Of a stretch of DNA of 64,000 nt, positions 5,013 through 55,809 are shown in pieces. Numbering within the stretch: position 1 is the first letter of the stretch; the number at the start of each line of letters is the position of its first letter. Made by a program: the position numbers and the translations under genes. The stretch spans positions 1 to 64,000 of the forward strand of contig NZ_JAKZFR010000006.1 in assembly GCF_022808935.1 (NCBI RefSeq). The letters run 5' to 3'. The DNA comes from Geothrix sp. SG200 (lineage in GTDB: Bacteria > Acidobacteriota > Holophagae > Holophagales > Holophagaceae). Under the pieces are notes generated by a model. That model made no database searches and was not told the origin of the DNA. It saw nothing but the letters and a program-made list of their open reading frames with translations.

Positions 5013-7730
5013 ATGAAACGTCATGTGTCCTTGTCCAGCCTCCTGTGGTCTGGCCTTGTCCTGGCTCTGGCGCTGCCCCTGGCCGCCCAGGGGGCCAAGG
5101 CCCCGGTTGCCGCGGCCAAAAAGAGCCAGTTGCCGCCCCTCATCGACCGGGACAAGTTCTTCGGCAATCCCGAGATCGCCGCGGCCCAGATCTCTCCCGA
5201 CGGGAAGTGGATCGCCTTCCTCAAGCCGTACAAGGAGACCCGCAACATCTGGGTCAAGAAGGTGGGGGAGCCCTACGCAAAGGGACACCTGATCACCGCG
5301 GATCCCAAGCGCCCCATTCCGGCCTTCTTCTGGAGCCGGGACGGCAAGCAGATCCTCTTCGTTCAGGACAAGGACGGCGACGAGAACTACAACGTCTATG
5401 CCGTGGACCCGGCGGCACCCGCCGCGGCCGGCAAGGAGGTCCCCGAGGCCCGCAACCTGACGGCGGCCAAGGGCGCCCGCGCCATGATCTACGCGGTGCC
5501 CAAAGCCGATCCCGACACGATCTACGTGGGCCTCAACGACCGCGACGCCGCCTGGCACGATGTCTACAAGGTGAAGATCTCCACGGGTGAGCGGACGCTG
5601 GTGCGAAAGAACACCGAGCGCATCGCCGGCTGGGTCTTCGACAAGCAGGCGAACCTGCGCCTGGCCCTGCGCACCACCGACAAGGGCGACACCGAGATCC
5701 TCCGCGTGGATCCCGAGGGCTTCAAGACGGTCTACGAGTGCTCGGTCTTCGAATCCGCGGCGCCGGTGAACTTCCACAAGGACGGCAAGCGGGTCTACCT
5801 GGAGACGAACAAGGGCGCCCGGAACCTCTCGGAGCTGGTGCTCTTCGATCCCGCCACCGGCAAGGAGGAGAAGCTCGAATCCGACCCCAAGGGCCGCGTG
5901 GACTTCGGGTCAGCCGTGTTCTCCGACCTGACGGACGAGCTGATCGCCACGACCTACGACGATGACCGCACCCGGATCTACTGGAAGGACAAGGCCTGGG
6001 AGGCGGACTACAAGCTGCTGCAGAAGAAGCTGCCCGGGCGGGAGATCAGCCTGGGCTCCATGACCACCGATGAGCAGCTGGTGATGGTGACGAGCACCAG
6101 CGACCGGGATCCCGGCACGCGCTACCTCTTCGACCGCCGCACCAAGAAGTTGAGCCTCGAATATGTCTCCCGCAAGGACCTGCCCCGGCAGGACCTCGTC
6201 GCCATGAGGCCCATCCGCTACACGTCCAGCGACGGCCTGGAGATCCCCGCCTACCTGAGCCTGCCCAAGGGCGTGCCTGCCAAGGGGCTGCCCCTGGTGG
6301 TGGTGCCCCACGGCGGCCCCTGGGCCCGGGACAGCTGGGGCTACAATAGCCTGGCCCAGTTCCTGGCCAACCGCGGCTACGCCGTGCTGCAGCCCAACTT
6401 CCGGGGCTCCACCGGGTACGGCAAGGCGTTCCTCAATGCCGGCAACAAGCAGTGGGGCGACCTCATGCAGGACGACCTCACCTGGGGGGTGAAGCACCTG
6501 GTGGCCCAGGGCATTGCCGATCCCAAGCGGGTGGGCATCCTGGGCGGGTCGTATGGCGGCTACGCCACCCTGGCCGGCGTGGCCTTCACGCCGGACCTCT
6601 ACGCCGCCGCCGTGTCCATCGTGGGCCCCTCCAACCTGCTGACCCTGCTGGAGACCATCCCGCCCTACTGGGAGGCCGGCCGCATCGTCTTCCACGAGCG
6701 CATGGGCAACCCCAACACTCCCGAGGGCAAGAAGCAGCTGGAGCGCCAGTCACCGCTGAACTCCGCGGCGAAGATCCACACCCCGCTCATGGTCATCCAG
6801 GGCGCCAATGATCCCCGCGTGAAGAAGGCCGAGAGCGACCAGATCGTCATCGCCTTGCGGGATCGCGGTTTCCCCGTGGAGTACCTGTGCGCGCCGGACG
6901 AAGGCCACGGCTTCGCCAGGCCCGTCAACAACCAGGCCATGTTCGCCGCTGCAGAGACCTTCCTGGCCAAGTACCTCAAGGGCCGCCATCAGGAAGGTGG
7001 CAAGCCCGATGTCATGAAGCGCCTGCCGGAGATCACCGTCGATCCCAAGACCGTGGTGCTGGCGAAGAAGGCCGACGCGGCGTCCGTGACCATTCCCAAG
7101 CCCGTCGCCAAGCCCACGGCCGGCACCTTCACCTATGCCGGCACCTTCGCCATGGGACCGCGTTCCATGGCCATCACCATGATCCGCACGGTGAAAGAGG
7201 AGGGTGGCTCCTGGGTGGTGACCGATGCCACCAAGCTGCCAGGCGGGGAGGCGGTGGACACCACCACCATGGCCAAGGACAGCCTGGTGCCCCTGAAGCG
7301 CCAGGTGAAGCAGGGCCCCGTGGCCATCGAGGTGTCCTACGAGGGCGCCAAGGCCACGGGCTCCATGGCCATGGGCGGCGCCGCCAAGCCCTTCACCATC
7401 GAGCTGGGCGGCGGAGCCTACGCCGAGGGCTCTGGCGCCGAGGACGCCCTGGCCTGCCTGCCCCTGGCGGAGGGCTACACCGTCACCTTCCGCAATGTGG
7501 ACCTCCAGCGCCAGAAGGTCCAGCTCAAGCAGGCCAAGGTGCTGGGCCAGGAGGACCTGAAGGTGCCCGCGGGCAGCTTCAAGGCCTGGAAGGTGGAGCT
7601 CACCTCCGCCGAAGGCGAGCCTGGCAACACCACCTTGTGGGTGGACACCGCCAGCCGGAAAGTCATCAAGACCACGGCCACGGGCCCCCAGATGGGCGGC
7701 GCCGTGATCACGGTGGAACTGCAGAACTGA
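5013..7730 (+). CDS. Secreted S9 (prolyl oligopeptidase-type) peptidase with C-terminal DUF3108-like extension
   Basis: 905 residues. A signal peptide (about 1-26, ending LAAQGA) is followed by an N-terminal beta-propeller rich in DGKWIAF and SRDGKQILF blades, then an alpha/beta-hydrolase domain. The triad is Ser513 in GGSYGGY, Asp600 in GANDPRV and His632 in DEGHGF. S9 peptidases usually end soon after the histidine. Here about 245 further residues follow, with PAGSFKAWKVEL and TTLWVDTASRKV strongly resembling DUF3108-type periplasmic domains. Start at ATG 5013, preceded by AAGGAG; the long upstream open frame is antisense to dtd. Likely a periplasmic or exported peptide-degrading enzyme. 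Confidence 0.92.
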   Translation: MKRHVSLSSLLWSGLVLALALPLAAQGAKAPVAAAKKSQLPPLIDRDKFFGNPEIAAAQISPDGKWIAFLKPYKETRNIWVKKVGEPYAKGHLITADPKRPIPAFFWSRDGKQILFVQDKDGDENYNVYAVDPAAPAAAGKEVPEARNLTAAKGARAMIYAVPKADPDTIYVGLNDRDAAWHDVYKVKISTGERTLVRKNTERIAGWVFDKQANLRLALRTTDKGDTEILRVDPEGFKTVYECSVFESAAPVNFHKDGKRVYLETNKGARNLSELVLFDPATGKEEKLESDPKGRVDFGSAVFSDLTDELIATTYDDDRTRIYWKDKAWEADYKLLQKKLPGREISLGSMTTDEQLVMVTSTSDRDPGTRYLFDRRTKKLSLEYVSRKDLPRQDLVAMRPIRYTSSDGLEIPAYLSLPKGVPAKGLPLVVVPHGGPWARDSWGYNSLAQFLANRGYAVLQPNFRGSTGYGKAFLNAGNKQWGDLMQDDLTWGVKHLVAQGIADPKRVGILGGSYGGYATLAGVAFTPDLYAAAVSIVGPSNLLTLLETIPPYWEAGRIVFHERMGNPNTPEGKKQLERQSPLNSAAKIHTPLMVIQGANDPRVKKAESDQIVIALRDRGFPVEYLCAPDEGHGFARPVNNQAMFAAAETFLAKYLKGRHQEGGKPDVMKRLPEITVDPKTVVLAKKADAASVTIPKPVAKPTAGTFTYAGTFAMGPRSMAITMIRTVKEEGGSWVVTDATKLPGGEAVDTTTMAKDSLVPLKRQVKQGPVAIEVSYEGAKATGSMAMGGAAKPFTIELGGGAYAEGSGAEDALACLPLAEGYTVTFRNVDLQRQKVQLKQAKVLGQEDLKVPAGSFKAWKVELTSAEGEPGNTTLWVDTASRKVIKTTATGPQMGGAVITVELQN

Positions 7731-40629: not shown

Positions 40630-40931
40630 TGGCCACCGAGACCTTCCAGGCCAGCCGCTGGACGAAGGGCAACCACCTCTTCGCCACGGTCATCGAGGTG
40701 ACCGAGGCGGCCGTGATCCGACGGAAGCGGTCGTGGTTCACGGTGAACGAGATCAGCATCCACCTCTCCAAGGTGGCCAGCGTGCGCATCGAGACCGGCC
40801 TGCTCTGGTCGGACATCGTCATCGAGAGCACCGGCGGCAGCGACCCCCTTACCAGCCACGGCCACACCAAGGCCGACGCCCGCCGCATCAAGGAGCTCAT
40901 CGAGGCCGCGCAGAGCCGGGGCATGCGCTAA
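40629..40931 (+). CDS. Small PH-domain-like protein
   Basis: 100 residues, soluble. The pattern TVIEVTEAAVIRRKRSWFTV followed by NEISIHLSKVASVRIETGLLW resembles bacterial PH domains (bPH), ending in a helix (KADARRIKELIEAA). Such modules bind membranes or proteins. Translationally coupled to the transketolase half upstream and 11 bases before the Ser/Thr kinase. Function unknown. Confidence 0.65.
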   Translation: MATETFQASRWTKGNHLFATVIEVTEAAVIRRKRSWFTVNEISIHLSKVASVRIETGLLWSDIVIESTGGSDPLTSHGHTKADARRIKELIEAAQSRGMR

Positions 40932-40942
40932 GAGGGGAGGCC

Positions 40943-43747
40943 ATGCCGCCAGCGACGCCAGCGCCTCCCGATCCGGAGTCCCGGCGCCCTTCCGGGGCCG
41001 GCGTCCTGCCCGCGGGGTCCAGGATCGGCCGCTTCCAGGTGCAGGCTCTCCTGGGGCGGGGAGGCATGGGGGCCGTGTATCTGGCCTGGGACCCCGTGCT
41101 GGAGCGGAGGGTCGCCCTCAAGGCGATCCACCTGGGCGAGGACGGGAAGGCCATGGCCAAGGCCAGGTTCCGCCGGGAGGCCAAGGCGCTGGCCCAGCTC
41201 AACCACCGGAACGTGTGCCAGGTGCACGACTGGGTGGAGGCGGACGGGAGCGCCTACATCGCCATGGAGTTCATCGAGGGGAAGACCCTGGCCGAGCTGG
41301 CGAAGGGGCTGGACCTCCGGCGCAAGCTCCAGGTCCTGCGCGCCATTGCCTTCGCCCTGGAGGCGGCCCACGCCAAGGGGATCATCCACCGGGACCTGAA
41401 ACCCAGCAACGTGATGGTGGATGCCGATGGCCAGGTCAAGGTCCTGGATTTCGGCCTGGCCAGGCTCGTGGATGCAACCTCGGCCGAGGGGGAGGATCCG
41501 ACCGGGAACATCCTCAATCTCGCGGGCCTGTCTCACCCGCAGGAGAGCGGACCGACGCTGGCGGCTGTCCCGGCCCCGGACCGGGAGGAACGGACGAGCG
41601 TGGGCTCCGCGCCTCCCTCTCCGTCGCCTTCTGACTGGGGCGAGATGACGGAAGCCGGCGTGTTCATGGGCAGCCCCACCTATGCGTCTCCAGAGCAGAT
41701 GCGCGGGAGGCGCGCCGGTCCGGCGAGCGACGTGTTCTCCCTGGGTGTGGTCGCCTGGGAGCTTCTGCTGGGGGACCACCCGTTTCCCGGCGAGGGCCGG
41801 GAGAGGATGGTGGCCACCATCCAGGGCGACCTCCGGCCGCTGCGGGGTCGGGGGCTGCCCCGATGGCTCGGGGCCCTGCTGCGGACCATGCTCCTGCGGG
41901 AAGCGGCCAAGCGGCCGACGAGCCGCCAGGTGGCCGATGCCATCAGCCGCCACCTGGCGGGAAACCCGGCCGTAAGGTGGGCCGCAGGCCTCGCCATCGG
42001 CCTCGCCATGGTGGCGGGGGGCGCCTACTACCTGTTCGGACGCAGCATCATCGGGGACCTCGGCAGGGGACGTCCGCCGCGGATGGCGGTCATGCCGATC
42101 CGCAACGCCACGGGGGATCCGGCCTTCGAGGCCCAGGTGGGCGTGGGCATGACGGAGCTCCTGTCGACGGCCCTGCGGGGCTCGCCGCACCTGGACGTGG
42201 TGGAACCCGAATCCGTGGCCCGGGTGTTGTCGACCCTCCGGATCTCCGCTGCAGAAGCCCTGGATCCGGCCAGCCAGCCCCGGATCGCCAACGCCCTGGG
42301 CGCCCAGCTGTTCCTCCGGGGAACCCTGGGCCGGGACCCCGCCGGGCAGGTGAATGTGCTGACCTACGAGCTGGTGGACGGATCGGGACGCGTCCGCTTC
42401 TCGGGGGCGGCTCGGGCCCCCCGCCAGGATTCGTTCGCGCCCTACGAACTGGTGGATCCCGCCGCCAACGACCTGCTTCGGAAGGTGGACCCACTTCGGG
42501 CAGGCACGGTCCAGAACACGCCGGTGCCGCCGCAAGCCTTTGCGGCCTATGCCCAGGGAAAGGCTTTGTTCCTGAAGGGGGACTTCAAGGGAAGCGAACC
42601 CTATCTCCAGGACGCCGCCATGAAGGCTCCGGCCTTCTCCAGCGCCGTGTCGGCCTATGCCGCCTGCCTCCGTCGCCTCGGCCGGGATCAGGCGCCCGCG
42701 GTCGCCAACTGGGCGCTCATGTCCGCGAAGGCCACGGGGGACCGGTGGGCCGAGGGGCGGACCCTGGGCCTGAAGGCGTACCTGGCCAAGGATCTCGGGC
42801 AGCTCGATGAATCGGAGAAGCTCCGGGAAGCCACCCTGGCTCTGGCCCAGGCCATCGGCGACCGGGATGGGGAGATCATCGCCTACAACCACCTGGGGCT
42901 GATCGCGGCCGAGCGGGGGAAGTCCAAGGCGGCCCGGGAATTCTACGAGCGTTCCCTCCAGCTCAGCCAGCAGACCGGGGACAAGGTCTACCAGTCCCTG
43001 GCCCAGAACAACCTGGCCAACCTGGCGCTGAAGCGGGGCGATCTCGGGACCGCCGAAGCCCTCTACCAGAGCAACCTGAACCTTCAGCAGGGGCTGAGGA
43101 ACCGATGGGGCGAGGCCCTGGCCCAGAACAACCTGGGGGTGGTCGCGCTCATGGCCCGGGACCTGCCGGCGGCCGAGGTGCGGCTGACCGCGGCCTTGGC
43201 GACCCGCGAGTCCGTGGGTGACCGGGTGGGCCGCATCACCTGCCTGCGGAACCTCGGCATCCTGGCCCAGATGAAGGGGGACCTGCCCGGTTCCGCGGTC
43301 TTCCACCGCCGCGCGCTCGACCTTGCGGAGGCCTCGGGGCTGCGGACCATCGAGGCCGAGTGCCGGTTCTACACGGCCGAGCTGGAGCGCCTCCAGCAGC
43401 GCTTCGGCCCGGCCCTGGCGGGCTACCGGCAGGTCCTCGAGCTCTTGCCGGAAGGGGTGACTCCGGATGTCCGGGCGAACGCCCAGGCTGCGGCCGCGGA
43501 ATGTCTGGTCCGCAGGCCCAGGCCCGACCTGAAGGAAGCCGGGAAGTGGCTCCTCGCCATTCCGGCCGGGTCTGCGGACTCGCCCTACGTCCACCGGGCC
43601 AAGGCCTGGCTGGCGGCCCGGTCGGGCCAGCGCGACGCCGCCCTGGCCGAGCTGGTGCGGGCGATCGAGGATCCCAACCGCCAGGCTCCGGAGATCCGGG
43701 CCGAACTCGAAGCCGCACGGGCCGCCTTTCTGGCGGAGCCCCGCTAG
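40943..43747 (+). CDS. Transmembrane Ser/Thr protein kinase with FlgO/TolB-like and TPR domains
   Basis: 934 residues. Hanks-type kinase domain 30-335: GRGGMGAVY, Lys60 in VALKAI, HRDLKPSN at 149-156, DFG at 169-171, SPTYASPEQMRG. The loop between DFG and the APE-equivalent is about 77 residues, some 45-50 longer than usual, rich in Ser, Pro and acidic residues. One membrane segment at about 345-366. Outside it, a domain beginning MAVMPIRNATGDPAFEAQVG resembles the nucleotide-binding-like modules common in such kinases, then about eight TPR-like repeats (e.g. AQNNLANLALKRGDL, AQNNLGVVALMARDL). Probably an extracytoplasmic-sensing kinase. Confidence 0.92.
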   Translation: MPPATPAPPDPESRRPSGAGVLPAGSRIGRFQVQALLGRGGMGAVYLAWDPVLERRVALKAIHLGEDGKAMAKARFRREAKALAQLNHRNVCQVHDWVEADGSAYIAMEFIEGKTLAELAKGLDLRRKLQVLRAIAFALEAAHAKGIIHRDLKPSNVMVDADGQVKVLDFGLARLVDATSAEGEDPTGNILNLAGLSHPQESGPTLAAVPAPDREERTSVGSAPPSPSPSDWGEMTEAGVFMGSPTYASPEQMRGRRAGPASDVFSLGVVAWELLLGDHPFPGEGRERMVATIQGDLRPLRGRGLPRWLGALLRTMLLREAAKRPTSRQVADAISRHLAGNPAVRWAAGLAIGLAMVAGGAYYLFGRSIIGDLGRGRPPRMAVMPIRNATGDPAFEAQVGVGMTELLSTALRGSPHLDVVEPESVARVLSTLRISAAEALDPASQPRIANALGAQLFLRGTLGRDPAGQVNVLTYELVDGSGRVRFSGAARAPRQDSFAPYELVDPAANDLLRKVDPLRAGTVQNTPVPPQAFAAYAQGKALFLKGDFKGSEPYLQDAAMKAPAFSSAVSAYAACLRRLGRDQAPAVANWALMSAKATGDRWAEGRTLGLKAYLAKDLGQLDESEKLREATLALAQAIGDRDGEIIAYNHLGLIAAERGKSKAAREFYERSLQLSQQTGDKVYQSLAQNNLANLALKRGDLGTAEALYQSNLNLQQGLRNRWGEALAQNNLGVVALMARDLPAAEVRLTAALATRESVGDRVGRITCLRNLGILAQMKGDLPGSAVFHRRALDLAEASGLRTIEAECRFYTAELERLQQRFGPALAGYRQVLELLPEGVTPDVRANAQAAAAECLVRRPRPDLKEAGKWLLAIPAGSADSPYVHRAKAWLAARSGQRDAALAELVRAIEDPNRQAPEIRAELEAARAAFLAEPR

Positions 43748-45786: not shown

Positions 45787-46242
45787 ATGTCCGGTTCATT
45801 GAACAAGGTTCTGCTCATCGGCAACCTCGGGCGCGACCCCGAGCTGAAGTCCACGCCCTCGGGCCAGTCTGTCGCGCGGTTCTCCGTGGCCACCACCGAG
45901 ACCTGGAAGAACCAGGCCGGCGAGAAGCAGAGCAAGACCGAGTGGCACAACATCGTGGTGTGGGGCAAGCAGGCCGAGATCGCCGAGAAGTACCTGCGCA
46001 AGGGCAAGCAGGTGATGATCGAGGGACGCATCCAGTACCGCGAGTACACCGACCAGGCCGGCGTGAAGAAGACCGCCTGCGACATCCGCTGCGACAACTT
46101 CGTCATGCTGGGCCGCATGGAGGACGGCGGCGGCAGCCGGGAAGGTGGCTACGGCCGCGGCGGCAGCCAGGACTTTGAAGAGCACGGCGCGCCCAGCCCG
46201 GCCGCCGGCGGCAGCTTCCCCGACGACGACATCCCCTTCTGA
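45787..46242 (+). CDS. ssb: Single-stranded DNA-binding protein
   Basis: 151 residues: OB fold (SLNKVLLIGNLGRDPELKST, WHNIVVWGKQAEIAEKYLRK, EGRIQYREYTD), a glycine-rich linker and the acidic C-terminal tail DDDIPF that recruits DNA-repair and replication proteins. A very strong ribosome site AAAGGAGG precedes the ATG, as expected for an abundant protein. Followed by a strong hairpin terminator. Confidence 0.98.
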   Translation: MSGSLNKVLLIGNLGRDPELKSTPSGQSVARFSVATTETWKNQAGEKQSKTEWHNIVVWGKQAEIAEKYLRKGKQVMIEGRIQYREYTDQAGVKKTACDIRCDNFVMLGRMEDGGGSREGGYGRGGSQDFEEHGAPSPAAGGSFPDDDIPF

Positions 46243-46345: not shown

Positions 46346-48058
46346 TTATCTCGGCATGACGTTGTTCCAGGTCCCCTGAATATGGGTGTGCCAATGGACC
46401 ACACGATCCTTGTCCACGAGGATGGATCGAAGCCGAGGACGCCCGATGGGCGCCATGACTTGGGTCGGCTTGGCGAGGAAGGTGATTTCCCAGCCGATGA
46501 TGGTGTCGGCGTCCTTTCCGCGCGGCCAGCGGTTCGTGAGGGCGGAATACCAGCGGACCTTCCCGAGCACCTTCACATCCTGGATCTGTGTGTTCGGACC
46601 CCACAGGGACCGCTCGGCCATGATTTTGACGAAGGCCAGAGCCTCTTCCGGCGTGGGTTCGGGTCCGCAGTCCAGATCGGGACCGAACGCTGAAGCAGGT
46701 CGCCTCCGGGCCACCTGCCACGCTGGCCACGGCGCCTCGTCGTTTGGGTCTGGCTGCACAGCTTCCGGTTTTTGCGGGGTTTGGGTTTCCTCCGGCGGAG
46801 GCGATGGTTTCGGCGTTCCGGAGACCTGCGCCGGGTACTCCGCCACGACCATTCGTGACGCCTGGATCGGACCCGGGGGAAGCGCTGCGATGGGCCCGGG
46901 GGCGCTTGGGAATTCAAAGACCTGCGGAGGTCGGTCAGGGAGGGCCTGGATGCGTCGGGCAATGACAGGCATCTGGGGAGCCTCGGCAGCGGATTCCAGA
47001 AGGGGCGCCGGGAATCCGGCGGCCGGTAACCGTGTCTGGGGCTTTCCAGCCGGGGCGGGCAAGCTCGCCACTAGGGCCAGGACCGCGGCGAACCCCAGGC
47101 CAGGCATCGTGAAGCGCACCTTGGGCGGGTCGGACAAAAGCAGGCGGCGCAGGCGTTCCATGAGGTCGCCTCCTTTGGCCTGGAGGGCCGGAGATGGAGT
47201 CCACCCGCGGTATTCATCGAGGAGGCTCAGGGTTTCGGCATAGAAGACGGCGTCTCCGCAGGCCTGGACGGCCGCGTCGTCGCAGCAGTGTTCCCGTTCG
47301 GTCCGGATCCGGCGGGAGATCCACCACACGGCGGGGTGGAAGAAGAGGAGGATCTCGATCGCGCACTGGAGGCCGTTGACGAGCCCATCCAGGCGGCGGA
47401 TGTGGGCGAGCTCGTGGGCCAGGACGGCCTCGGCGGCGAGGGGATCCAGGTTCGCAAAGAACCCGAGGGGAAGCAGGACGACCGGCCGGAGCAGCCCCAG
47501 GCACATGGGCGTCGCGACCCGGGCCGATTCCAGGAAGCGCACGGCCCTGAGCAGCCCCGTGCGCCGCACCAGGTCTTCGAGCCAGCCCGGTTCGGCCATG
47601 GGTCTGGCTGCAGCTCGCAGTCGCCGCAGCCAGAGCCAGCCACCCGCAGTCCGAAGGCTGAGGAGCAGGACGCCCAGGGCCCAGGCCGCCGCCACCCAGG
47701 GGAGGTACGGCTGCAGGTAGGTCTGCCAAGGTCGAGCGAGGGACTGGGCGGGCGCGACATCCGGAGCGGAGGCCGAACCGACCGTGGGCACAGGCGCATA
47801 TGGGGCGGGAAGAGGGCCGGAGGCAGGGGTGGTGACGGGCGCTGAAGGAGAAGCCAGCAGGGTGAAAGTGGTCGCGGCGCTTCCCAGACACGCCAGCAGG
47901 AAGGCGCAGCCCAGCAGATAGCGGACCTGGGGGCTCCGACGCCGCGTCCAAGTGAAGGCGGCCCAGGCCAACAGGCCCAGCAGGGCGCCCTGCCAGAGGA
48001 AGTGGACCAGGGTCCAGGCCAGGCGCTGGGCGAAGGGGGTCCCGAAGAGGGGGATCAT
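46346..48058 (-). CDS. M56 (BlaR1-type) membrane metalloprotease sensor A
   Basis: 570 residues. About five membrane segments (around 12-37, 46-68, 117-135, 225-247, 322-342). The zinc site HELAH is at 215-219 in a cytoplasmic loop, with EREHCCDDAAV (residues 255-264) after it: the M56 signature. The C-terminal extracytoplasmic part has a Pro-rich linker, then a domain of about 110 residues (GPEPTPEEALAFVKIMAE to IQGTWNNVMPR) shared with sensor B. There is no penicillin-binding SxxK/transpeptidase domain, so beta-lactams are not the evident signal. Start overlaps the repressor stop (ATGA). Confidence 0.88.
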   Translation of the reverse strand: MIPLFGTPFAQRLAWTLVHFLWQGALLGLLAWAAFTWTRRRSPQVRYLLGCAFLLACLGSAATTFTLLASPSAPVTTPASGPLPAPYAPVPTVGSASAPDVAPAQSLARPWQTYLQPYLPWVAAAWALGVLLLSLRTAGGWLWLRRLRAAARPMAEPGWLEDLVRRTGLLRAVRFLESARVATPMCLGLLRPVVLLPLGFFANLDPLAAEAVLAHELAHIRRLDGLVNGLQCAIEILLFFHPAVWWISRRIRTEREHCCDDAAVQACGDAVFYAETLSLLDEYRGWTPSPALQAKGGDLMERLRRLLLSDPPKVRFTMPGLGFAAVLALVASLPAPAGKPQTRLPAAGFPAPLLESAAEAPQMPVIARRIQALPDRPPQVFEFPSAPGPIAALPPGPIQASRMVVAEYPAQVSGTPKPSPPPEETQTPQKPEAVQPDPNDEAPWPAWQVARRRPASAFGPDLDCGPEPTPEEALAFVKIMAERSLWGPNTQIQDVKVLGKVRWYSALTNRWPRGKDADTIIGWEITFLAKPTQVMAPIGRPRLRSILVDKDRVVHWHTHIQGTWNNVMPR

Positions 48059-48441
48059 GGCCGCTTCTGCCTGGCCTGGGCCAGCAACCGAGCCAGTTCC
48101 TCGCGTTCCTTGACGCCCAGCCTCCGGCTCGAAAGCGTCGTGGCCATCAGGTCCAGGGCGCTGCCGCCGAAGGCGCGCTCCAGCAGGTCGTCCACCAGGT
48201 GCTTGAGGGTGTGCTCCCGGGCCTGGGCAGGCCGGTAGACGTGGGAACGCTCGGAGTCGTCCCGGAGCAGCAGCCCCTTGTCCGTCATCGTCTGCATCAT
48301 CTTCAGCACGGCCGTGTAGGTCAGGTCCCGGTCGGCGCCGAGGACCTCGTGGACCTGCCGGACCGTGGCCGGGCCGAGGTCCCACAAAGTCCGGAGAATG
48401 GAGAGTTCCACGTCGGTGGGGCGATTCATGGGGTGGCGCAT
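48055..48441 (-). CDS. BlaI/MecI family transcriptional repressor A
   Basis: 128 residues. Winged helix: TDVELSILRTLWDLGPATVR, then TYTAVLKMMQTMTDKGLLLR; C-terminal helical dimerisation and cleavage region (LVDDLLERAFGGSALDL). In the known system the M56 protease inactivates BlaI after signal detection. Close paralogue of repressor B (about 85% identical by eye) and more distant from repressor C. First gene of a coupled repressor-protease pair; its promoter carries an operator-like dyad. Confidence 0.92.
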   Translation of the reverse strand: MRHPMNRPTDVELSILRTLWDLGPATVRQVHEVLGADRDLTYTAVLKMMQTMTDKGLLLRDDSERSHVYRPAQAREHTLKHLVDDLLERAFGGSALDLMATTLSSRRLGVKEREELARLLAQARQKRP

Positions 48442-48467
48442 GGGGTATCCCGAGAATTACAGCAAAA

Positions 48468-48495
48468 AATATACGATAAAAAGTGTATATGTCAA
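48468..48495 (-). promoter_or_regulatory. Promoter and BlaI-type operator of module A
   Basis: Minus strand: TTGACA (48495-48490), 16-base spacer ATATACACTTTTTATCG-type, TATATT (48473-48468). The spacer and -10 contain the dyad ATATAC...GTATAT (48469-48490). The core TACGATAAAAAGTGTAT is repeated almost exactly at module B, which marks it as the shared repressor site. Confidence 0.75.
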
Positions 48496-48552
48496 CATCC
48501 TCGATCCTTTATTTCTGGGTGGTGCCTACACCAAGGTTTCAGAAGTCCGCGA

Positions 48553-48574
48553 GACGGCGCCTTCGGGCTCCGTC
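48553..48574 (-). terminator. Possible terminator after M56 sensor B
   Basis: Minus strand GACGGAGCC-CGAA-GGCGCCGTC, a 9-bp stem with one mismatch, 27 bases after the sensor B stop. No T run follows. Confidence 0.4.
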
Positions 48575-48600
48575 CCTTTGATGGTTCTTGCGTCCAGGGG

Positions 48601-50790
48601 TCAAGGACGGTGGGGCGGGGGGAGCGGTGGAACGGGCGGGGCTTTTGGTTCCGAGTATCGCGGCCGGCTGATGTCAGGCATGGTTTCGTTGGGCCGGGTC
48701 CAGGGATACTGCAGGCGCCAGTGGATCACCCGATTCTGGTCCATCAGCAGGGTGAAGGCCTGGCGGGTGGTACGCGCCGCGTTCTGGGGATCCCGGGATA
48801 GGGTCTCGAAGTCGATCAGCCAACCCTCGATGTCCGGGCCGATGGCCTGGATCGCACGATCCTTTTCTTCCGACCTGGGCCAGTGGTTCGTGAAGGCGCG
48901 ATTCCACCGCCCCTTGCCTCGAACCTTCAGCTCCACGATGATCGCGGTGGCGCCCCAGGTGGTCTTGTCCACGACGGTCCGGACGAGGGGGCGGACCTCC
49001 TCCAGGGTGGGCTGGGGGCCGCTGTCCAGGGTCACGGGAGTGCCCGCCCTTTCCCCCGAAGCCGGGGCGTCAGGTCGGGGTTCCTGCGAAGGTGCGGCCG
49101 GGGCCAGGGGCTCGATGGTCAACAGGATCTGGATCTTTCCGTCGCTGGGGTACCCAGTTCTCGTCCATACGACGAAGTAGACGGTCGTGGGCGTGTCGCT
49201 CGTGTTGAGGAAGGCGGCTTCCGGGGTTCCGAGGCCATGGCGGCTGCCCTCGAACGGGGCGCCCCACTTGTTGAGGGCCCGGACCTCGAAATAGGCCAGG
49301 CTGGACTCGCTCTGGAGGGTGGCCCTGGCCAGGGACTGGCCGGGCACCTGCACCGCATAGCCCTTCTTCGGCCAGGTGAGCAGCTCGTCCCGGATGAGGA
49401 CGGGGCACGGGGGGGCCTGGAGGGTCCGGACGGCCGTCCCCGGCAGGATGGACAGGCTCTTCGCATCGACCACCGGGATGGCGATGGGCGCGGGATGGGC
49501 TTTCGTGGGAGCAGGATAAAACGTCTCTTTGGCGGGCGGCTGGGCCGGGCCGGGCTGCGTCTCGGAACCTGCCGGAGACGGAGGAGGTGTCATCACCGGC
49601 TCCTGGGCGACCGGGAGGGTGCCGGCAGGCCCTGCGGCGCGGGGAAGCGGCATGGACTCGAAGGGTGGAATGACCCGAGGATTCGAGGCAAAGGGATCGT
49701 GGGGGATGTCGGCCGCGACCGGCAGTGTCACGGTCCGATGGGACACGGCTTTCTCGATCCGGGTCAGGGCGGCTTCCAGTCGCTCCGCCTGGGCGGGGAG
49801 TGATGAGACCAGGGCCAGGGCGGCGACGAGGAGCAGGCTGGGCGTGGCGAAGCGCAGCTGGGGCGGGTCGGCGAGGAGCAGGCGGCGCAGGCGTTCCATG
49901 AGATTGCCTCCACTGGCGCGGAGTGCCAGGGACGGGGGCCGGTCGCGGAATTCATCGAGGCGGCTCAGGGTTTCGGCGTAGAAGACGGCGTCACCGCAGG
50001 CCAATACGGCGGCATCGTCACAGCAGTGTTCCCGTTCGGTCCGGATCCGGCGGGAGATCCACCACACGGCGGGGTGGAAGAAGAAGAGCACCTCGATCAC
50101 GCACTGGAGGCCGTTGACGAGGCCATCCAGGCGCTTGATGTGGGCGAGCTCGTGGGCCAGGACCGCCTCGGCGGCCAGGGGATCGAGGTTGGCGAAGAAG
50201 CCCAGGGGCAGGAGGATGACCGGGCGCAGGAGGCCCATGCACATGGGGGTTGCCACCCGGGCGGACTCGACGAAGCGCACCGCGCGGCGGAGGGCGGCGC
50301 TGCGGACCAGGCGCCCGAGCCAAGGCGGCTCGACGATGGACGTAGCCGCGGCCTTCAGGCGGCGCAGCCAGAGCCATCCACCCACCGTGCGAAGGCTGAA
50401 GGCCAGGACACCCGCGACCCATGCGGCCAGGATCCAGGGCAGGTACGGCTGCAGACGGGCCTGCCAGGGGAGGGTGGTCGTCAAGGGTGCGGCTGCGGAC
50501 GCCACGAGCGGTGTGGAGGGGGCCTCTGGAGAGCCCGGAAGCAGGGCGAAGCTCAGGCCCTGACCCGGAACATGAGGAACCGGCGAGAGCAGCATGAAGG
50601 TGGTGATCGCGCTCCCCAGGCAGGCCAGGAGGAAGGCGCAACCCGCCAGATGGCGAAGCTGGGGGGCCCGTCGCTTGAAGAGCGAGAACGCCACCCAGGC
50701 CGCCAGGCCCAGCAGGGCGCCCTGCCACAGGAAGTGGAGCAGGGTCCAGGCGAGGCGCTGGGCCGCGGGCGATTCGAGCAGGGGGATCAC
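48601..50790 (-). CDS. M56 (BlaR1-type) membrane metalloprotease sensor B
   Basis: 729 residues. The N-terminal 340 are closely similar to sensor A: same opening, HELAH at 213-217, EREHCCDDAAV, same membrane segments. It then has a longer extracytoplasmic part: a linker, a middle domain (ILPGTAVRTLQAPPCPVLIR to YFVVWTRTGYPSDGKIQILL) absent from A, and the C-terminal domain shared with A (GPQPTLEEVRPLVRTVVDKT to MDQNRVIHWRLQYPW). GTG start overlapping the repressor stop (GTGA). No penicillin-binding domain. Signal unknown. Confidence 0.87.
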   Translation of the reverse strand: MIPLLESPAAQRLAWTLLHFLWQGALLGLAAWVAFSLFKRRAPQLRHLAGCAFLLACLGSAITTFMLLSPVPHVPGQGLSFALLPGSPEAPSTPLVASAAAPLTTTLPWQARLQPYLPWILAAWVAGVLAFSLRTVGGWLWLRRLKAAATSIVEPPWLGRLVRSAALRRAVRFVESARVATPMCMGLLRPVILLPLGFFANLDPLAAEAVLAHELAHIKRLDGLVNGLQCVIEVLFFFHPAVWWISRRIRTEREHCCDDAAVLACGDAVFYAETLSRLDEFRDRPPSLALRASGGNLMERLRRLLLADPPQLRFATPSLLLVAALALVSSLPAQAERLEAALTRIEKAVSHRTVTLPVAADIPHDPFASNPRVIPPFESMPLPRAAGPAGTLPVAQEPVMTPPPSPAGSETQPGPAQPPAKETFYPAPTKAHPAPIAIPVVDAKSLSILPGTAVRTLQAPPCPVLIRDELLTWPKKGYAVQVPGQSLARATLQSESSLAYFEVRALNKWGAPFEGSRHGLGTPEAAFLNTSDTPTTVYFVVWTRTGYPSDGKIQILLTIEPLAPAAPSQEPRPDAPASGERAGTPVTLDSGPQPTLEEVRPLVRTVVDKTTWGATAIIVELKVRGKGRWNRAFTNHWPRSEEKDRAIQAIGPDIEGWLIDFETLSRDPQNAARTTRQAFTLLMDQNRVIHWRLQYPWTRPNETMPDISRPRYSEPKAPPVPPLPPPHRP

Positions 50791-51173
50791 GGACGCTTCT
50801 CCTTGGCCTTGGCCAGCAGCTGGGCGATCTCCTCGCGCTCGTCGGAGTCCAGCTTCCGGCTGGAGAGGGTGGTGGCCATCAGGTCCAGGGCCCTGCCGCC
50901 GAAGGCGCGCTCCAGCAGGTCGTCCACCAGGTGCCTCAGGGTGTGCTCCCGGGCCTGGGCGGGACGGTAGATATGGGAGCGCCCCGATTCATCGCGAAGC
51001 AGCAGCCCCTTGTCCACCATGGTCTGCATCATCTTCAGCACAGCCGTGTAAGCCAGATCCCTGTCCGCGCCGAGCACTTCGTGGACCTGGCGCACCGTGG
51101 CCGGGCCGAGGTCCCACAAAGTCCGGAGGACAGAGAGTTCCACATCGGTAGGGCGGTTCAGGGGGTGTCGCAT
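50787..51173 (-). CDS. BlaI/MecI family transcriptional repressor B
   Basis: 128 residues, winged helix TDVELSVLRTLWDLGPATVR and TAVLKMMQTMVDKGLLLRDE, followed by the helical C-terminus (AFGGRALDLMATTLSSRKLD). Paralogue of repressor A with the same pairing to an M56 gene and nearly the same promoter. Both genes of the module appear duplicated as a unit. Whether repressors A and B recognise each other's operator is open, but the near-identity of recognition helices and sites predicts cross-binding. Confidence 0.92.
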   Translation of the reverse strand: MRHPLNRPTDVELSVLRTLWDLGPATVRQVHEVLGADRDLAYTAVLKMMQTMVDKGLLLRDESGRSHIYRPAQAREHTLRHLVDDLLERAFGGRALDLMATTLSSRKLDSDEREEIAQLLAKAKEKRP

Positions 51174-51198
51174 GGAGTGTCCTGGGATTACACCGGAA

Positions 51199-51226
51199 AA
51201 CCTACGATAAAAAGTGTATGTGTCAA
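51199..51226 (-). promoter_or_regulatory. Promoter and BlaI-type operator of module B
   Basis: Minus strand: TTGACA (51226-51221), 16-base spacer, TAGGTT (51204-51199). The segment TACGATAAAAAGTGTATGTG (51203-51222) matches module A at 18-19 positions, although the surrounding sequence has diverged, pointing to selection on the site. Confidence 0.75.
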
Positions 51227-51268
51227 CCCCGGCTCCGGATTTTCTTTCCGGCGCCGGGGCTGACCTGA

Positions 51269-51300
51269 CTCCAAACGGCGGTCGCAGGCGCTGTTTGGAG
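51269..51300. other. Terminator-like hairpin between divergent modules B and C
   Basis: Arms CTCCAAAC / GTTTGGAG (8 bp) extended by GCG/CGC, with outer arms CCTGAC (51264-51269) and GTCAGG (51311-51316). It lies upstream of both flanking genes, so it terminates neither. A near-relative (CTCCAAACGGGGCCC stem) terminates the end of module C. Confidence 0.6.
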
Positions 51301-51340
51301 CACGGGTGAAGTCAGGGGAACAGATCTACGGAAACATCCG

Positions 51341-51369
51341 TTGACAATCTACGGACGATGCCGTAGATT
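51341..51369 (+). promoter_or_regulatory. Promoter and operator of module C
   Basis: TTGACA (51341-51346), 17-base spacer, TAGATT (51364-51369). A perfect dyad AATCTACGG-ACGATG-CCGTAGATT (51346-51369) fills the spacer and -10; an extra half-site ATCTACGG lies at 51324-51331. The motif differs from modules A/B, as does the repressor. Confidence 0.8.
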
Positions 51370-51390
51370 CTGGGACATCCCGGAGCCCCC

Positions 51391-51780
51391 ATGTCTGAGC
51401 TTCCCCGTCCTTCGGATTTCGAACTGGCCATCCTACGTGTGCTCTGGCGCCTTGGAGCAGGCACGGTCCGGCAGGTCCACGAAGGGCTGAAGCCCGAGCG
51501 CCAGCTTGGGTACACCACAGTGCTGAAAACCATGCAGATCATGGCGGAAAAGGGGCTGTTGCTCCGGGACGAGCAGGCTAAGAGCCATGTGTACCGCCCA
51601 GCCGAGGAAGCGCAGGAGACCCGCCAGGGCATGGTCCGAGACCTGGTGGATAAAGCCTTTGAGGGATCGGCCCTGCAGCTCCTGGTCCATGCCCTCCATG
51701 CCAAGCGGCCTAGCACCAAGGAACTGGACGAGATCCAGGCCCTCATCGAGCAGGCACGCTCGGAACGGGGGCGGAAATGA
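51391..51780 (+). CDS. BlaI/MecI family transcriptional repressor C
   Basis: 129 residues. Winged helix SDFELAILRVLWRLGAGTVR and YTTVLKTMQIMAEKGLLLRD, helical C-terminus with AFEGSALQLLVHAL. It is clearly more distant from A and B than they are from each other, matching its different operator. The stop overlaps the start of sensor C (ATGA). Divergent from module B; 217 bases of regulatory DNA separate them. Confidence 0.92.
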   Translation: MSELPRPSDFELAILRVLWRLGAGTVRQVHEGLKPERQLGYTTVLKTMQIMAEKGLLLRDEQAKSHVYRPAEEAQETRQGMVRDLVDKAFEGSALQLLVHALHAKRPSTKELDEIQALIEQARSERGRK

Positions 51781-54074
51781 CCTGGATGGCTTCCCCGCTC
51801 ATGGCTCGTTTGGGGTGGACCCTGATCCATTTCATCTGGGAGGGTGCGCTTCTGGCGGGCCTGTTGGCCATAGCGTTCTGGCTCACCACCGGAAGGTCGC
51901 CGCGACTGAGGTACGGGCTCGCATGCCTGGCGCTGACGATGATGGCCGCCTCTCCAGTGGCGACTTGGCAGTGGCTTGGCCATGTGGCGCCCCGTGCGGG
52001 GGCGCCACCGATCCGGGCCCTGGCCGAGGGCTCTGGAGCCCACCAGCCCACCGGTCAAATCTCCGCGGTTCCGGAAGTGCCACCGCGTCCAGGGAACCCC
52101 GTGGCCTGGTTGCCCATCTGCGTCGCCATCTGGATGGCAGGGGTTGCTCTCTTGAGCCTGCGGCTGGCAGGCCGCTGGGCTTGGCTGCAGTGGCTTCGCC
52201 ATCGGCCGGAGACTGTGGCAGTCGAGGACGATATCCAGCTCCGGCTCCTGCGGCTGTGTCAGCGCATGCGCCTGGCCAGCAACATCCGGATGCTCCTCTG
52301 CAATCGAGTGTCGGGACCCACGGTGATGGGCTGGCTTCGGCCCGTGATCCTCGTCCCGCCCGCTGCTTTGCTTGGGATGCCACCGGACCAGATGGAGCTG
52401 GTGCTGGCCCACGAACTGGCCCACATCCTGCGCCATGATTTCGCCATCAACCTCATTCAGTCTTGCATCGAAGTGCTGCTCTTCTACCACCCGGCCGTGT
52501 GGTGGGTCTCCGCGAAGATCCGTCAGGAACGGGAGCTGTGCTGCGACGATCTGGCGGTGCGAACGACGGGGGACGCCCTGGACTATGCCGCCGCGCTCAC
52601 CCGGCTGGAGGCCCTTTGCCGCCCACCGGATCCCCCACGACACGTCGCCCAGGCTCTGGCCGTGGGCGCCATCGGAGGTTCGTTCATGCACCGCATTCGT
52701 CGACTTGTTTCACCCATGGCCCCGATCCCCCTGGCTCCACGCGCGGGAGTGGTCGTGGCGCTACTGATCGGTTTTTCCTTCATGCTTCATGCCGCCCGGC
52801 CCCAGGAGGCGGTGTCCACCTCTGGAAACGAACTCGTCCTCCGACGGTTCAATGACTCCAGTTCCGACGGCGTGGCCAAGGCCGGTCAGGTCGCCTTCGA
52901 CGGGGTCCGAGTGCCAGCAGAATTCGGTCTACAGGCGCTTGACCGACTTTCATCCATTCCAGCCAGCGGACCGGTCACAGAGCTTCGATTGCCCATCCCC
53001 ACAGAACCCAAGCCGGAAATCGGGCCTTATTCTTACAACTTTCCGGCGGTGGACCCTTCCGAACTACGCCTGATTCTTGAAAACCATGCCCAAGAGAAAC
53101 GGCTGACTCTCCAATCCTGCCCGTTGCATGGGGTGATCATCCGCCGCCTGAATGCTGCAACACCCAAGTTCAGTCCGCTCCCGGGCAAATCCAGGTTGTC
53201 TGTTGTCGCGAAGGAGGCTGGTCTAGATCTCGTGGATGCCGCACTCAGGGAATTAGCCGATTTGAAGCCCGCGCCGTTCCTTTTCCAGAGGGTCGAGAAA
53301 TCAGGTCGGGCACCTTCAATGGGTGATCGGGCGCTCACCATCGAACTCAGTGATGTGAACCCGGACGAGCTCCGCATGGTCCTGGATGCCGAGCGTACGA
53401 AACCGGCACCGTCCGCGGGGACAGGCCAAGTGGCCGGGACCGAGCTTTCTCCCCATTTCGTCAGCGGGCAGAGGCCGCCGGAAGGCACGATGTGGCTCCG
53501 CCGCTATGACCGCGATTCGGCGGATGACCTCCGTCGCGCAGGAACGATCTACGTCCACGTGAACACGGTCCCGTTCGGAAGCTTGATGCAGGCCTTGAAA
53601 CAGCTCGACCAGGCGCCGGCGGACCCATCCAAGGGCTATGTGGACCTGGATCTGAAGGCCGATCCTAAGGCCAAGGATCCACATGGCCTTTGGACCTACC
53701 TGTTTCTGGGCGTGGACCCCGTAAGGGTCGAGCGTGTGGTTCTGGCCCGGGCCACCTTCCGTTCCCTCAATCCTGAGGACAAGAAACCCGGCACCATCGT
53801 CATGCAGCGGATGGCCAGGTTCACCGCCCAGCTCGGCGTGATCCCAGAAGGGCTGAACGTGCAGGTGTGGGCTGGGAATGTCCCGGCGCCGGCAGTGCTG
53901 CAGGCCCTCCAACAGCTGTTGGCAAGGCAGCCGGAGGCCGGGATCCCGCAGGAAGTCCGGGTGCAGGTGCCTCCGGACGAGCCTGGGGCCCGGATCACCT
54001 TGGACCTCAAGGACAAGAACCCCTCCGCGCTCTGGGACGAGTTGAACAAGGTCATCAGGACAGAGAAGCCCTGA
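51777..54074 (+). CDS. M56 (BlaR1-type) membrane metalloprotease sensor C with a repetitive extracytoplasmic domain
   Basis: 765 residues. M56 core at 1-350: membrane segments near 12-37, 46-65, 110-130 and 223-245, HELAH at 212-216, then ERELCCDDLAV. The remaining 410 or so residues are extracytoplasmic and unlike sensors A/B. They contain four spaced segments of one pattern: VDPSELRLILE, VNPDELRMVLD, VDPVRVERVVL and KNPSALWDELN, each after a strand such as LTIELSD or ITLDLKD. This resembles the short secretin/TonB N-terminal (STN) fold, an inference. No penicillin-binding domain. Coupled to repressor C. Confidence 0.85.
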   Translation: MTWMASPLMARLGWTLIHFIWEGALLAGLLAIAFWLTTGRSPRLRYGLACLALTMMAASPVATWQWLGHVAPRAGAPPIRALAEGSGAHQPTGQISAVPEVPPRPGNPVAWLPICVAIWMAGVALLSLRLAGRWAWLQWLRHRPETVAVEDDIQLRLLRLCQRMRLASNIRMLLCNRVSGPTVMGWLRPVILVPPAALLGMPPDQMELVLAHELAHILRHDFAINLIQSCIEVLLFYHPAVWWVSAKIRQERELCCDDLAVRTTGDALDYAAALTRLEALCRPPDPPRHVAQALAVGAIGGSFMHRIRRLVSPMAPIPLAPRAGVVVALLIGFSFMLHAARPQEAVSTSGNELVLRRFNDSSSDGVAKAGQVAFDGVRVPAEFGLQALDRLSSIPASGPVTELRLPIPTEPKPEIGPYSYNFPAVDPSELRLILENHAQEKRLTLQSCPLHGVIIRRLNAATPKFSPLPGKSRLSVVAKEAGLDLVDAALRELADLKPAPFLFQRVEKSGRAPSMGDRALTIELSDVNPDELRMVLDAERTKPAPSAGTGQVAGTELSPHFVSGQRPPEGTMWLRRYDRDSADDLRRAGTIYVHVNTVPFGSLMQALKQLDQAPADPSKGYVDLDLKADPKAKDPHGLWTYLFLGVDPVRVERVVLARATFRSLNPEDKKPGTIVMQRMARFTAQLGVIPEGLNVQVWAGNVPAPAVLQALQQLLARQPEAGIPQEVRVQVPPDEPGARITLDLKDKNPSALWDELNKVIRTEKP

Positions 54075-54094: not shown

Positions 54095-54127
54095 CTCCAA
54101 ACGGGGCCCGCAGGGCCTCGTTTGGAG
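54095..54127 (+). terminator. Terminator of module C
   Basis: 15-bp stem CTCCAAACGGGGCCC / GGGCCTCGTTTGGAG with one G-T pair and a 3-nt loop (GCA), 20 bases after the sensor C stop. A small hairpin (GCGGC-GGCGA-AGCCGC) precedes it. Confidence 0.75.
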
Positions 54128-54183
54128 CTGGGCTCTCGGAGAATCAAGGATCCTCCCGTACAATGGTCGGTTCGGGAGTCCGC

Positions 54184-55809
54184 ATGCTCGCAGTCCAGAA
54201 CGTCACCATGCGCTACGGCGCGAAGATCCTCTTCGAGGACGTCACCACCACCTTCAACCCGGGCCGGCGCTACGGCCTGACGGGGCCGAACGGGGCGGGG
54301 AAGTCCACGTTCATGAAGATCCTGGCCGGCGAGCTGGAGCAGCAGACGGGCACCGTGCAGCGGCCCCGCAAGATGGGCATCCTCCGCCAGGACCAGTTCG
54401 CCTTCGACGCGTTCCGCGTCATCGACACGGTGATCATGGGCAACGCGGGGCTCTGGAAGGCGCTGCAGGAGCGGGACGCCATCTACGAGAAGGCCGAGAT
54501 GACGGACGAGGACGGCATGCGTGTGGCCGAGCTCGAGGGCATCGTGGCCGACGAGGACGGCTATACCGCCGAGGCCGATGCCGCGGTGCTGCTGGATGGC
54601 CTGGGCATCCCCGAGGCGCTCCACGAGCGGAAGATGGGCGAGCTGCAGGGCGGCCAGAAGGTGCGCGTGCTGCTGTCCCAGGCCCTGTTCGGCAACCCCG
54701 AGGCCCTGCTCCTGGACGAGCCCACCAACCACCTGGACCTGGACTCCATCCACTGGCTGGAGGAATTCCTGGACCGCTACAAGGGCACGGTGGTGGTGAT
54801 CTCCCACGACCGCCACTTCCTCAACAACGTCTGCACCCACATCGCCGATATCGACTACCAGACGATCATCCAGTACTCCGGCGGCTACGACGACATGGTC
54901 ATGGCCAAGATGCAGATCCGCTCGCGCATCGAATCCGAGAACGCCCAGCGCGAGAAGAAGATCGCCCAGCTCAATGAGTTCATCCAGCGCTTCGCGGCGG
55001 GCACCCGCAGCAGCCAGGTGAACAGCCGCCGCAAGGAGGTGGAGCGCCTCCAGCCCAGCGACCTGGCGCGCAGCAACATCCAGCGGCCCTTCATCAAGTT
55101 CAACCTAGGCAAGCCGGGCGGCCGCTACGCGCTGGAGTTCGAGGGCGTGAAGAAGGGCTACGACACAGCCAAGGACGGGACGGGCGGGCGCCACGAGGTC
55201 ATCAAGGGCTTCACCGCCATGGTCCAGCGCGGCGAGAAGGTCGCCATCATGGGCCGCAACGGCATCGGCAAGACCACGCTCCTGAACGCGCTGCTGGCCA
55301 ATGCGCCCCAGGTGACCGAAGGCGGCCTGAAGCTGGACGCGGGCGAGGTGAAGTGGGGCCACGAGGCCAACGTGGGCTACTTCTCGCAGGACTTCGCCGA
55401 GAGCATCCCCAAGGGCTACGACCTGGTGACCTGGCTGCACCAGTTCGACCCGGACGCCACCAAGGAGCAGATCCGCGGCGTCATGGGCCAGATGCTCTTC
55501 CGCGGCGAAGAGGGCAACAAGATGACGGACGTACTGAGCGGCGGCGAGTCCTGCCGCCTGCTGTTCTGCAAGCTCATGCTGCAGAAGCCCAACATCCTGG
55601 TGCTGGACGAGCCCACCAACCACCTGGACCTGGAGGCGGTCATCGCGCTGAACGACGCGCTCCAGCGTTACGAGGGCACCATCCTCTTCGTGACCCACGA
55701 CGAGGACATCATCGACGAAGTGGCCACCCGCATCTGGCACCTCACGGACGACGGCATCGAGGACTTCCAGGGGACCTACGCCGAGTACATGGCGCCCACA
55801 GGAAGGTGA
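54184..55809 (+). CDS. ybiT: ABC-F family ATPase, YbiT type
   Basis: 541 residues, two ABC domains and no membrane segment. Walker A motifs GPNGAGKSTF and GRNGIGKTTL; signatures LQGGQKVRV and LSGGESCRLL; Walker B LLLDEPTNHLD twice. The ILRQDQFAFDAFRVIDTVIM stretch is specific to YbiT among ABC-F proteins. Cytoplasmic ribosome-associated factor that rescues or tunes translation; not clearly an antibiotic-protection member. ATG 54184 has GGGAG six bases upstream; the ATG at 54163 is less likely. Confidence 0.94.
   Translation: MLAVQNVTMRYGAKILFEDVTTTFNPGRRYGLTGPNGAGKSTFMKILAGELEQQTGTVQRPRKMGILRQDQFAFDAFRVIDTVIMGNAGLWKALQERDAIYEKAEMTDEDGMRVAELEGIVADEDGYTAEADAAVLLDGLGIPEALHERKMGELQGGQKVRVLLSQALFGNPEALLLDEPTNHLDLDSIHWLEEFLDRYKGTVVVISHDRHFLNNVCTHIADIDYQTIIQYSGGYDDMVMAKMQIRSRIESENAQREKKIAQLNEFIQRFAAGTRSSQVNSRRKEVERLQPSDLARSNIQRPFIKFNLGKPGGRYALEFEGVKKGYDTAKDGTGGRHEVIKGFTAMVQRGEKVAIMGRNGIGKTTLLNALLANAPQVTEGGLKLDAGEVKWGHEANVGYFSQDFAESIPKGYDLVTWLHQFDPDATKEQIRGVMGQMLFRGEEGNKMTDVLSGGESCRLLFCKLMLQKPNILVLDEPTNHLDLEAVIALNDALQRYEGTILFVTHDEDIIDEVATRIWHLTDDGIEDFQGTYAEYMAPTGR

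Follow-up and report, generated by a model that had tools for sequence, protein, structure and literature searches.

Three BlaI-M56 gene pairs, here called modules A, B, and C, lie side by side at 46346–54074 of the window, a 64,000-base stretch of DNA (bases 1–64000 of contig C7) from the 3.36 Mb genome of a soil bacterium of the genus Geothrix (Acidobacteriota). In each module, reading frames and motifs show that a BlaI repressor gene and the gene of an M56 protease, its zinc site complete, are translationally coupled, and that a BlaI-type dyad spans the module's own promoter. Each pair probably forms a one-protein-plus-repressor module that uses BlaR1-type regulated proteolysis to answer a cue other than a beta-lactam. 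The usual labelling of BlaI-M56 pairs as penicillin sensors ("BlaR1") is misleading in resistance surveys, and the label fails here across the whole bacterial family. Going by the neighbouring ABC-F protein, the genome's nearest named species are G. rubra and G. paludis.

The three modules and their protease core

Modules A and B are in tandem on the minus strand, and module C is on the plus strand. Module A encodes a BlaI-type repressor of 128 amino acids (aa) (48055–48441, minus strand; PF03965, 90.7 bits) and a 570-aa M56 membrane metalloprotease (46346–48058, minus strand; PF05569, 97.2 bits). Module B encodes a 128-aa repressor (50787–51173, minus strand; 100.1 bits) and a 729-aa protease with a GTG start (48601–50790, minus strand; 103.6 bits). 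Module C, divergent from B across a 217-bp intergenic region, encodes a 129-aa repressor (51391–51780, plus strand; 85.5 bits) and a 765-aa protease (51777–54074, plus strand; 102.7 bits). The BlaI stop and M56 start overlap by 4 nucleotides (nt) in all three (ATGA in A and C, GTGA in B). The initial annotation had described three overlapping pairs, and all three were recovered; the genome as a whole holds six BlaI and six M56 genes, every one paired, which corrects the number of pairs to six.

Pfam cut-offs are 22.6 bits for Penicillinase_R (PF03965) and 31 bits for M56. All three repressors score above the cut-off for the BlaI/Penicillinase_R winged-helix domain and match no other Pfam family, and the three proteases match M56 plus a weak M48 and nothing else. 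Modules A and B share 58% identity in M56 and 86% in BlaI, and BlaI-C is 50% identical to BlaI-B. CopY and TcrY belong to the same BlaI/MecI fold family and gave matches of 42–53 bits. However, these scores are far under the 122-bit cut-off, no copper operon is present, and the three repressors lack cysteine altogether, hence also Cys-X-Cys, and are not CopY.

The HELAH and ERE(H/L)CCDD motifs noted in the initial annotation were confirmed in the M56 proteins of A, B, and C, each of which combines a HEXXH + ExxxD gluzincin site with the M56 domain, as expected of M56 (BlaR1-type) peptidases. Residues matching H201, H205, D210, E242, and D246, the catalytic set defined for S. aureus BlaR1 (PMC9834060), are all retained. 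The zinc-site residues H, E, H, D, E, and D are present in 53/53 aligned M56 proteins, a sample chosen partly by motif, and loci picked by hidden Markov model (HMM) alone were therefore checked separately; the site is intact in all 27 that could be scored, and no loss of the motif was seen among homologues. The only PDB sequence matches of B and C are to S. aureus BlaR1 and are restricted to the protease region (M56-C residues 114–264 match 8exs/8exp). The NCBIfam BlaR1 model scores 74.6, 82.5, and 70.2 bits for A, B, and C, under its 400-bit cut-off. Hydropathy peaks are compatible with four transmembrane helices, a cytosolic active site, and an outer C-terminus, although predicted models are poor, and the last hydropathy-predicted membrane helix directly precedes the outer half.

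The modules resemble staphylococcal BlaR1/BlaI and MecR1/MecI in pairing a repressor gene with a coupled M56 gluzincin gene, in their catalytic residues and own-promoter dyad, and in a predicted C-terminal extracytoplasmic half. They differ in having no penicillin-binding sensor and no beta-lactamase or PBP2a target. The lack of a penicillin-binding sensor, already proposed in the initial annotation, was borne out by profile searches of A, B, C, and 53 relatives. Pfam searches for transpeptidase (PF00905) or beta-lactamase families returned no match at E ≤ 1 in A, B, or C. Neither domain occurs in any of the 53 M56 proteins sampled from the bacterial family, among which four carry TonB_C, one SLT, and one STN, and no penicillin-binding domain was found in the genome's three other BlaI-M56 pairs. 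SxxK, SxN, and KTG are never all present together in any outer half, and penicillin-binding and beta-lactamase folds are absent among the listed structural matches of the low-quality B model. The suggestion in the initial annotation that sensor halves had been replaced implies a lost penicillin-binding domain, yet none of the 53 sampled proteins has one; its ancestral presence is therefore unlikely, and these M56 proteins of the family probably never had it.

It is very unlikely that the modules are true beta-lactam sensors that bind the drug by way of a diverged domain or with the help of a partner protein, an arrangement suggested for M. tuberculosis BlaR1. The M. tuberculosis homologue does pair BlaI with an M56 protease without a penicillin-binding domain, and it has no sensor domain yet is part of a beta-lactam system (PMC9834060). 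It has no equivalent of the outer halves seen here, which have domains of their own. The negative domain and motif searches, and the absence of a beta-lactamase target adjoining the locus, argue against this explanation.

Operators and regulon

Operators were searched by pattern matching, not by weight matrix, with the reversed pattern as control. TAC-N10-GTA is present at 6/6 BlaI promoters of the genome, and at five the dyad begins a few bases after TTGACA, in the spacer that separates the -35 and -10 boxes. TTGACA-N1-4-TAC-N10-GTA occurs at exactly five sites in 3.36 Mb, all of them BlaI-M56 promoters (reversed control, 0). The promoter/operator of A (48466–48495, minus strand) contains TTGACA at 48490–48495, the dyad TACACTTTTTATCGTA at 48472–48487, and a TATATT -10 box. 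That of B (51203–51226, minus strand) contains TTGACA and an identical core, TACACTTTTTATCGTA, at 51203–51218. This core is confined to the A and B promoters genome-wide, with mismatches allowed. Module C has paired operators (51325–51369, plus strand), a perfect dyad, TCTACGGACGATGCCGTAGA, at 51348–51367 and a one-mismatch copy 23 bp upstream, TCTACGGAAACATCCGTTGA, at 51325–51344, which overlap TTGACA (51341–51346) and TAGATT. The C dyad was found only at C, and its remaining two-mismatch matches number 5 per strand, fewer than the 20 of the control. There are two operator classes among the three modules, one common to A and B and a distinct one in C. The initial annotation had given each promoter a dyad of its own; the dyads are real, but A and B share one operator.

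The rule extends across the genus. In 47 Geothrix-level genomes, 41 pattern sites were found, of which 34 lie upstream of an M56 gene, at most 700 nt away, and two more lie at contig ends and carry E- and C-type sequences (modules D, E, and F are the genome's other three pairs). The core follows module type: TACACTTT...TCGTA in B-type, TACGG... in C-type, and TACGAAT...TTCGTA in E-type modules. Modules C, D, and E have two dyads in tandem. Four of the 41 sites, in other species, have TACAGACCTGTCTGTA after TTGACA, a different palindrome that was rejected as a module operator. The one inspected, in G008 (L128:1500–1620), precedes a saccharopine-dehydrogenase-like gene, not an M56 gene, and resembles the operator of an unrelated repressor.

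Because operators lie solely at BlaI-M56 promoters, autoregulation is the only regulon found. This narrows the choice left by the initial annotation, a regulon elsewhere or a self-only one, to the latter. The identical A/B core is absent elsewhere, so A and B probably form one circuit.

The TAC-N10-GTA spacing differs from the staphylococcal TACA-N2-TGTA, which has been described for CopY, BlaI, and MecI (PMC7253601). Two repressors of Clostridium thermocellum, BlaI_1845 and BlaI_0696, likewise have small or self-only regulons that include a BlaR1 gene, and their operator sites are paired and ordered (PMC8457756). The BlaR1 operon to which BlaI_1845 belongs is the only one that it controls, and it does so from paired sites; four-protomer sites were found experimentally for the BlaI proteins of this species (PMC8457756), and the tandem dyads of C, D, and E are similar. 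The C. thermocellum systems differ in their operator (GACTAT/GTCTAT) and in extra operon genes, and were read by their authors as a beta-lactam response.

Outer halves and proposed mechanism

The outer halves of A, B, and C are about 230–430 aa long. M56-A carries an orphan terminal domain of ~100 aa (residues 468–567; 46358–46657, minus strand) that is common to B by alignment and profile match (E 5e-39). The copy in M56-B, found by alignment and profile search, is ~110 aa (residues 594–702; 48685–49011, minus strand). The domain has no relative in Pfam or PDB. In a profile search of 77 genomes, every B-type protein carried it, and a stand-alone form occurred in three genomes without an M56 match above the family cut-off (L276:1399–1884, L277:1390–1818, and a third match in L275). 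In G048 and G040 (complete gene read), a lipobox-type signal peptide is followed by the domain. These lipobox-bearing stand-alone homologues suggest that the A/B terminal domain works outside the cytoplasm, and as free lipoproteins they are independent evidence of its location.

M56-B also has a putative beta-sandwich domain of ~115 aa (about residues 448–563; 49102–49449, minus strand). Alignment shows no copy in A, one in B and in G. paludis, and two in each of G009, G010, and G020. AlphaFold2 was run on alignments of 4 and 3 sequences and gave two models with a mean predicted local distance difference test (pLDDT) score of 40 and 44. On the low-confidence model, this domain appears PPC/PliG-like (PliG Z 9.4 and PPC/collagen-binding Z 9.0 by VIA; Foldseek E 1.3e-3 for PPC; local pLDDT about 50–70), and Pfam gave no PPC match in residues 448–563.

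The outer half of C is an internally duplicated ~200-aa unit. Unit 1 (about residues 352–548; 52830–53420, plus strand) and unit 2 (residues 571–765; 53487–54071, plus strand) match each other at E 3e-14 and are supported by ortholog alignment. Among C-type orthologues, the first unit is also present in G028 and G034, and a single unit is present in G006, G015, and G017. The C-type M56 gene of G034 (L110:7219–9015) has a TAG stop after outer-half unit 1, with the zinc protease half intact, and is possibly part of a decaying module. The C units were tested as STN homologues and homology was not shown (hhalign probability 13%; Secretin_N E 0.17 in one member). The C model yielded no fold match of use (best Z 6.7, helix bundles) and carries no weight as evidence. 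In G053, from another genus, a C-type M56 relative (L114:7868–9460) has two STN-like stretches in place of the C units (E 1.7e-6; 28.2 vs a cut-off of 28.4). This amounts to a sensor exchange within one protease lineage.

The genome's other modules have further outer domains. Module D (contig C4) has a proline-rich, coiled-coil-like outer half, module E (contig C1) a TonB_C domain (E 1.7e-17), and module F (contig C7, about 200 kb) a lytic transglycosylase (SLT) domain (E 3.6e-23). A large PIG-L/LmbE-type deacetylase-like gene (L013:8337–10931) is divergent from BlaI-D, 131 bp apart, and is a possible second target of the D operator. The short TonB-C M56 gene and its BlaI gene (L014:7611–9310) directly follow a gene at 6328–7527 that resembles an acidobacterial VWFA family (46.5 vs a cut-off of 81.25), and the operator of this TonB-C module, TACGAATCGGTTCGTA, is kept across the genus. 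In the sixth M56 protein, M56-F (L015:8247–10001; about 200.2–202.0 kb of contig C7), the SLT motif ES..F...A.S..GA.G..Q is apparently intact, and its BlaI operon has a TAC-N10-GTA dyad in a shifted position. A BlaI-controlled protease-transglycosylase fusion merits separate study.

Domain presence and copy number differ between relatives, and the protease half is constant. The outer halves therefore appear to be interchangeable cassettes: an orphan domain, a PPC-like beta domain, and a duplicated unit, with TonB-C, lytic transglycosylase, and STN domains in paralogues or relatives. Cassettes of this kind point to cues that are probably envelope or cell-wall states, not beta-lactams.

In the proposed mechanism, BlaI dimers on the dyad or dyads would obstruct RNA polymerase and hold operon expression down. 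With BlaR1 topology, the M56 protein would have its active site in the cytoplasm, and its C-terminal half would lie beyond the inner membrane. A cue met by the outer half would switch on the protease, which would cut BlaI, and the promoter would open. As operators were found nowhere but at the promoters of the modules themselves, more BlaI and more M56 protein would be the immediate output. Modules A and B, with a common operator, should repress and induce each other, and C would be insulated by its different operator. Both autoregulation and A/B cross-talk can be tested directly by means of the operator rule.

Three points weigh against this mechanism. The self-only regulon rests on pattern searches, and weaker sites or half sites in other places may also serve the repressors. 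It is unusual for a signalling system to target only itself, and the real output may have been missed. The AlphaFold models are poor, and topology and domain folds are weakly supported.

The main rival explanation, possible but doubtful, is that M56 is itself the effector: the outer half would bind or remodel the envelope, and BlaI and the protease would serve only as a dose-control loop. Operators confined to own promoters fit this, and the SLT domain of the sixth M56 protein and the TonB-C domain of another look more like working parts than ligand pockets. However, the coupling of BlaI to M56 is a known inducible architecture, a plain autorepressor needs no dedicated protease, and the outer halves of A, B, and C have no enzyme signature.

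A broader and more tentative proposal is that the modules represent a class of closed-loop proteolytic sensors. Their sole transcriptional target would be themselves, the protease would be both receiver and output, outer domains would be swapped, duplicated, or lost as cassettes, and modules would come and go at one slot. M56 proteins without a penicillin-binding domain (PMC9834060) and self-limited BlaI regulons (PMC8457756) are already known. New in the literature searched is the combination of outer halves that are modular and change in domain copy number, one outer domain that also exists as a free lipoprotein, a strict self-only operator rule across a genus, and a module-swapping slot. 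In this search, limited by scarce coverage of subscription journals, no paper was found on M56 proteins whose outer domain is TonB-C, STN, or SLT. The locus is a natural comparison set, with one protease chassis, varied outer domains, two operator classes, and close relatives with and without modules. It bears on how an outside event reaches the inner protease, a question called outstanding in the BlaR1 structure paper.

The module slot and its history

The modules occupy a slot bordered on the left by ssb (45787–46242, plus strand; TIGR00621, 159 bits) and on the right by a YbiT-like ABC-F ATPase gene (54163–55809, plus strand; NF011646, 648 bits, under its 762 cut-off). These two genes adjoin in about 39 genomes, of which about 30 have no module between them. 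One B-type module facing ssb is present in five genomes (G009, G010, G012, G020, and G035) and one C-type module facing ABC-F in four (G006, G015, G017, and G034), with ssb off the contig in G015. Modules A, B, and C occur together only in the window genome among the genomes compared. The triple arrangement, whose conservation the initial annotation had proposed to check, is not conserved, and the slot is mostly empty or single-module in relatives. Side-by-side modules are not unique, as neighbouring M56 genes lie about 2–4 kb apart in G060, G066, and G070, from other genera.

On the ABC-F tree, occupied genomes are scattered among empty ones, and modules have therefore apparently been gained and lost repeatedly at the slot. 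An ancestral divergent B/C pair, with one or the other module later lost in different lineages, would account for the fixed orientations just as well. A hairpin repeat between B and C (51269–51300) is a copy of the slot's second hairpin, which also lies after C (54095–54127) and is present in empty slots. Since copies flank C, simple recombination between them would offer a route for its removal.

The M56 tree broadly groups B lineages together and places A within the B clade, outside the B proteins of G000, G012, G020, G009, and G010 (87/82 support). Module A has the operator of the G000/G012 lineage and is a paralogue of long standing or else a duplicate that evolves fast. The "local expansion" of the initial annotation holds for A and B, which are paralogues, but not for C, a separate lineage that stands alone in the same slot in relatives.

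Patchy occupancy on the ABC-F tree and hairpins on either side of C could also be read as signs that the modules are selfish or addiction-like elements, maintained by inserting at the slot and having no signalling role. This is most improbable: no integrase or transposase gene was seen within the module span, B lineages stay broadly together on the M56 tree, and catalytic residues and operators are conserved over several lineages, pointing to a selected function.

Control of a remote or adjacent gene, such as ABC-F, as an antibiotic-response regulon is rather unlikely. The ABC-F gene is codirectional with C and starts 88 bp after it, in B-type genomes it and BlaI-B are divergent, and some ABC-F proteins are ribosome-protection resistance factors. 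Yet ssb and ABC-F are adjacent in the module-free genomes as well, and this synteny makes the ABC-F gene an unlikely module target. Its best model is the housekeeping-like YbiT, with resistance ABC-F models scoring far lower, and the A/B core has no further genomic copy. A few genes to the left of the slot, by-eye reading of the translation at 40733–43747 of the window suggests a large serine/threonine-kinase-like protein with a TPR-like tail.

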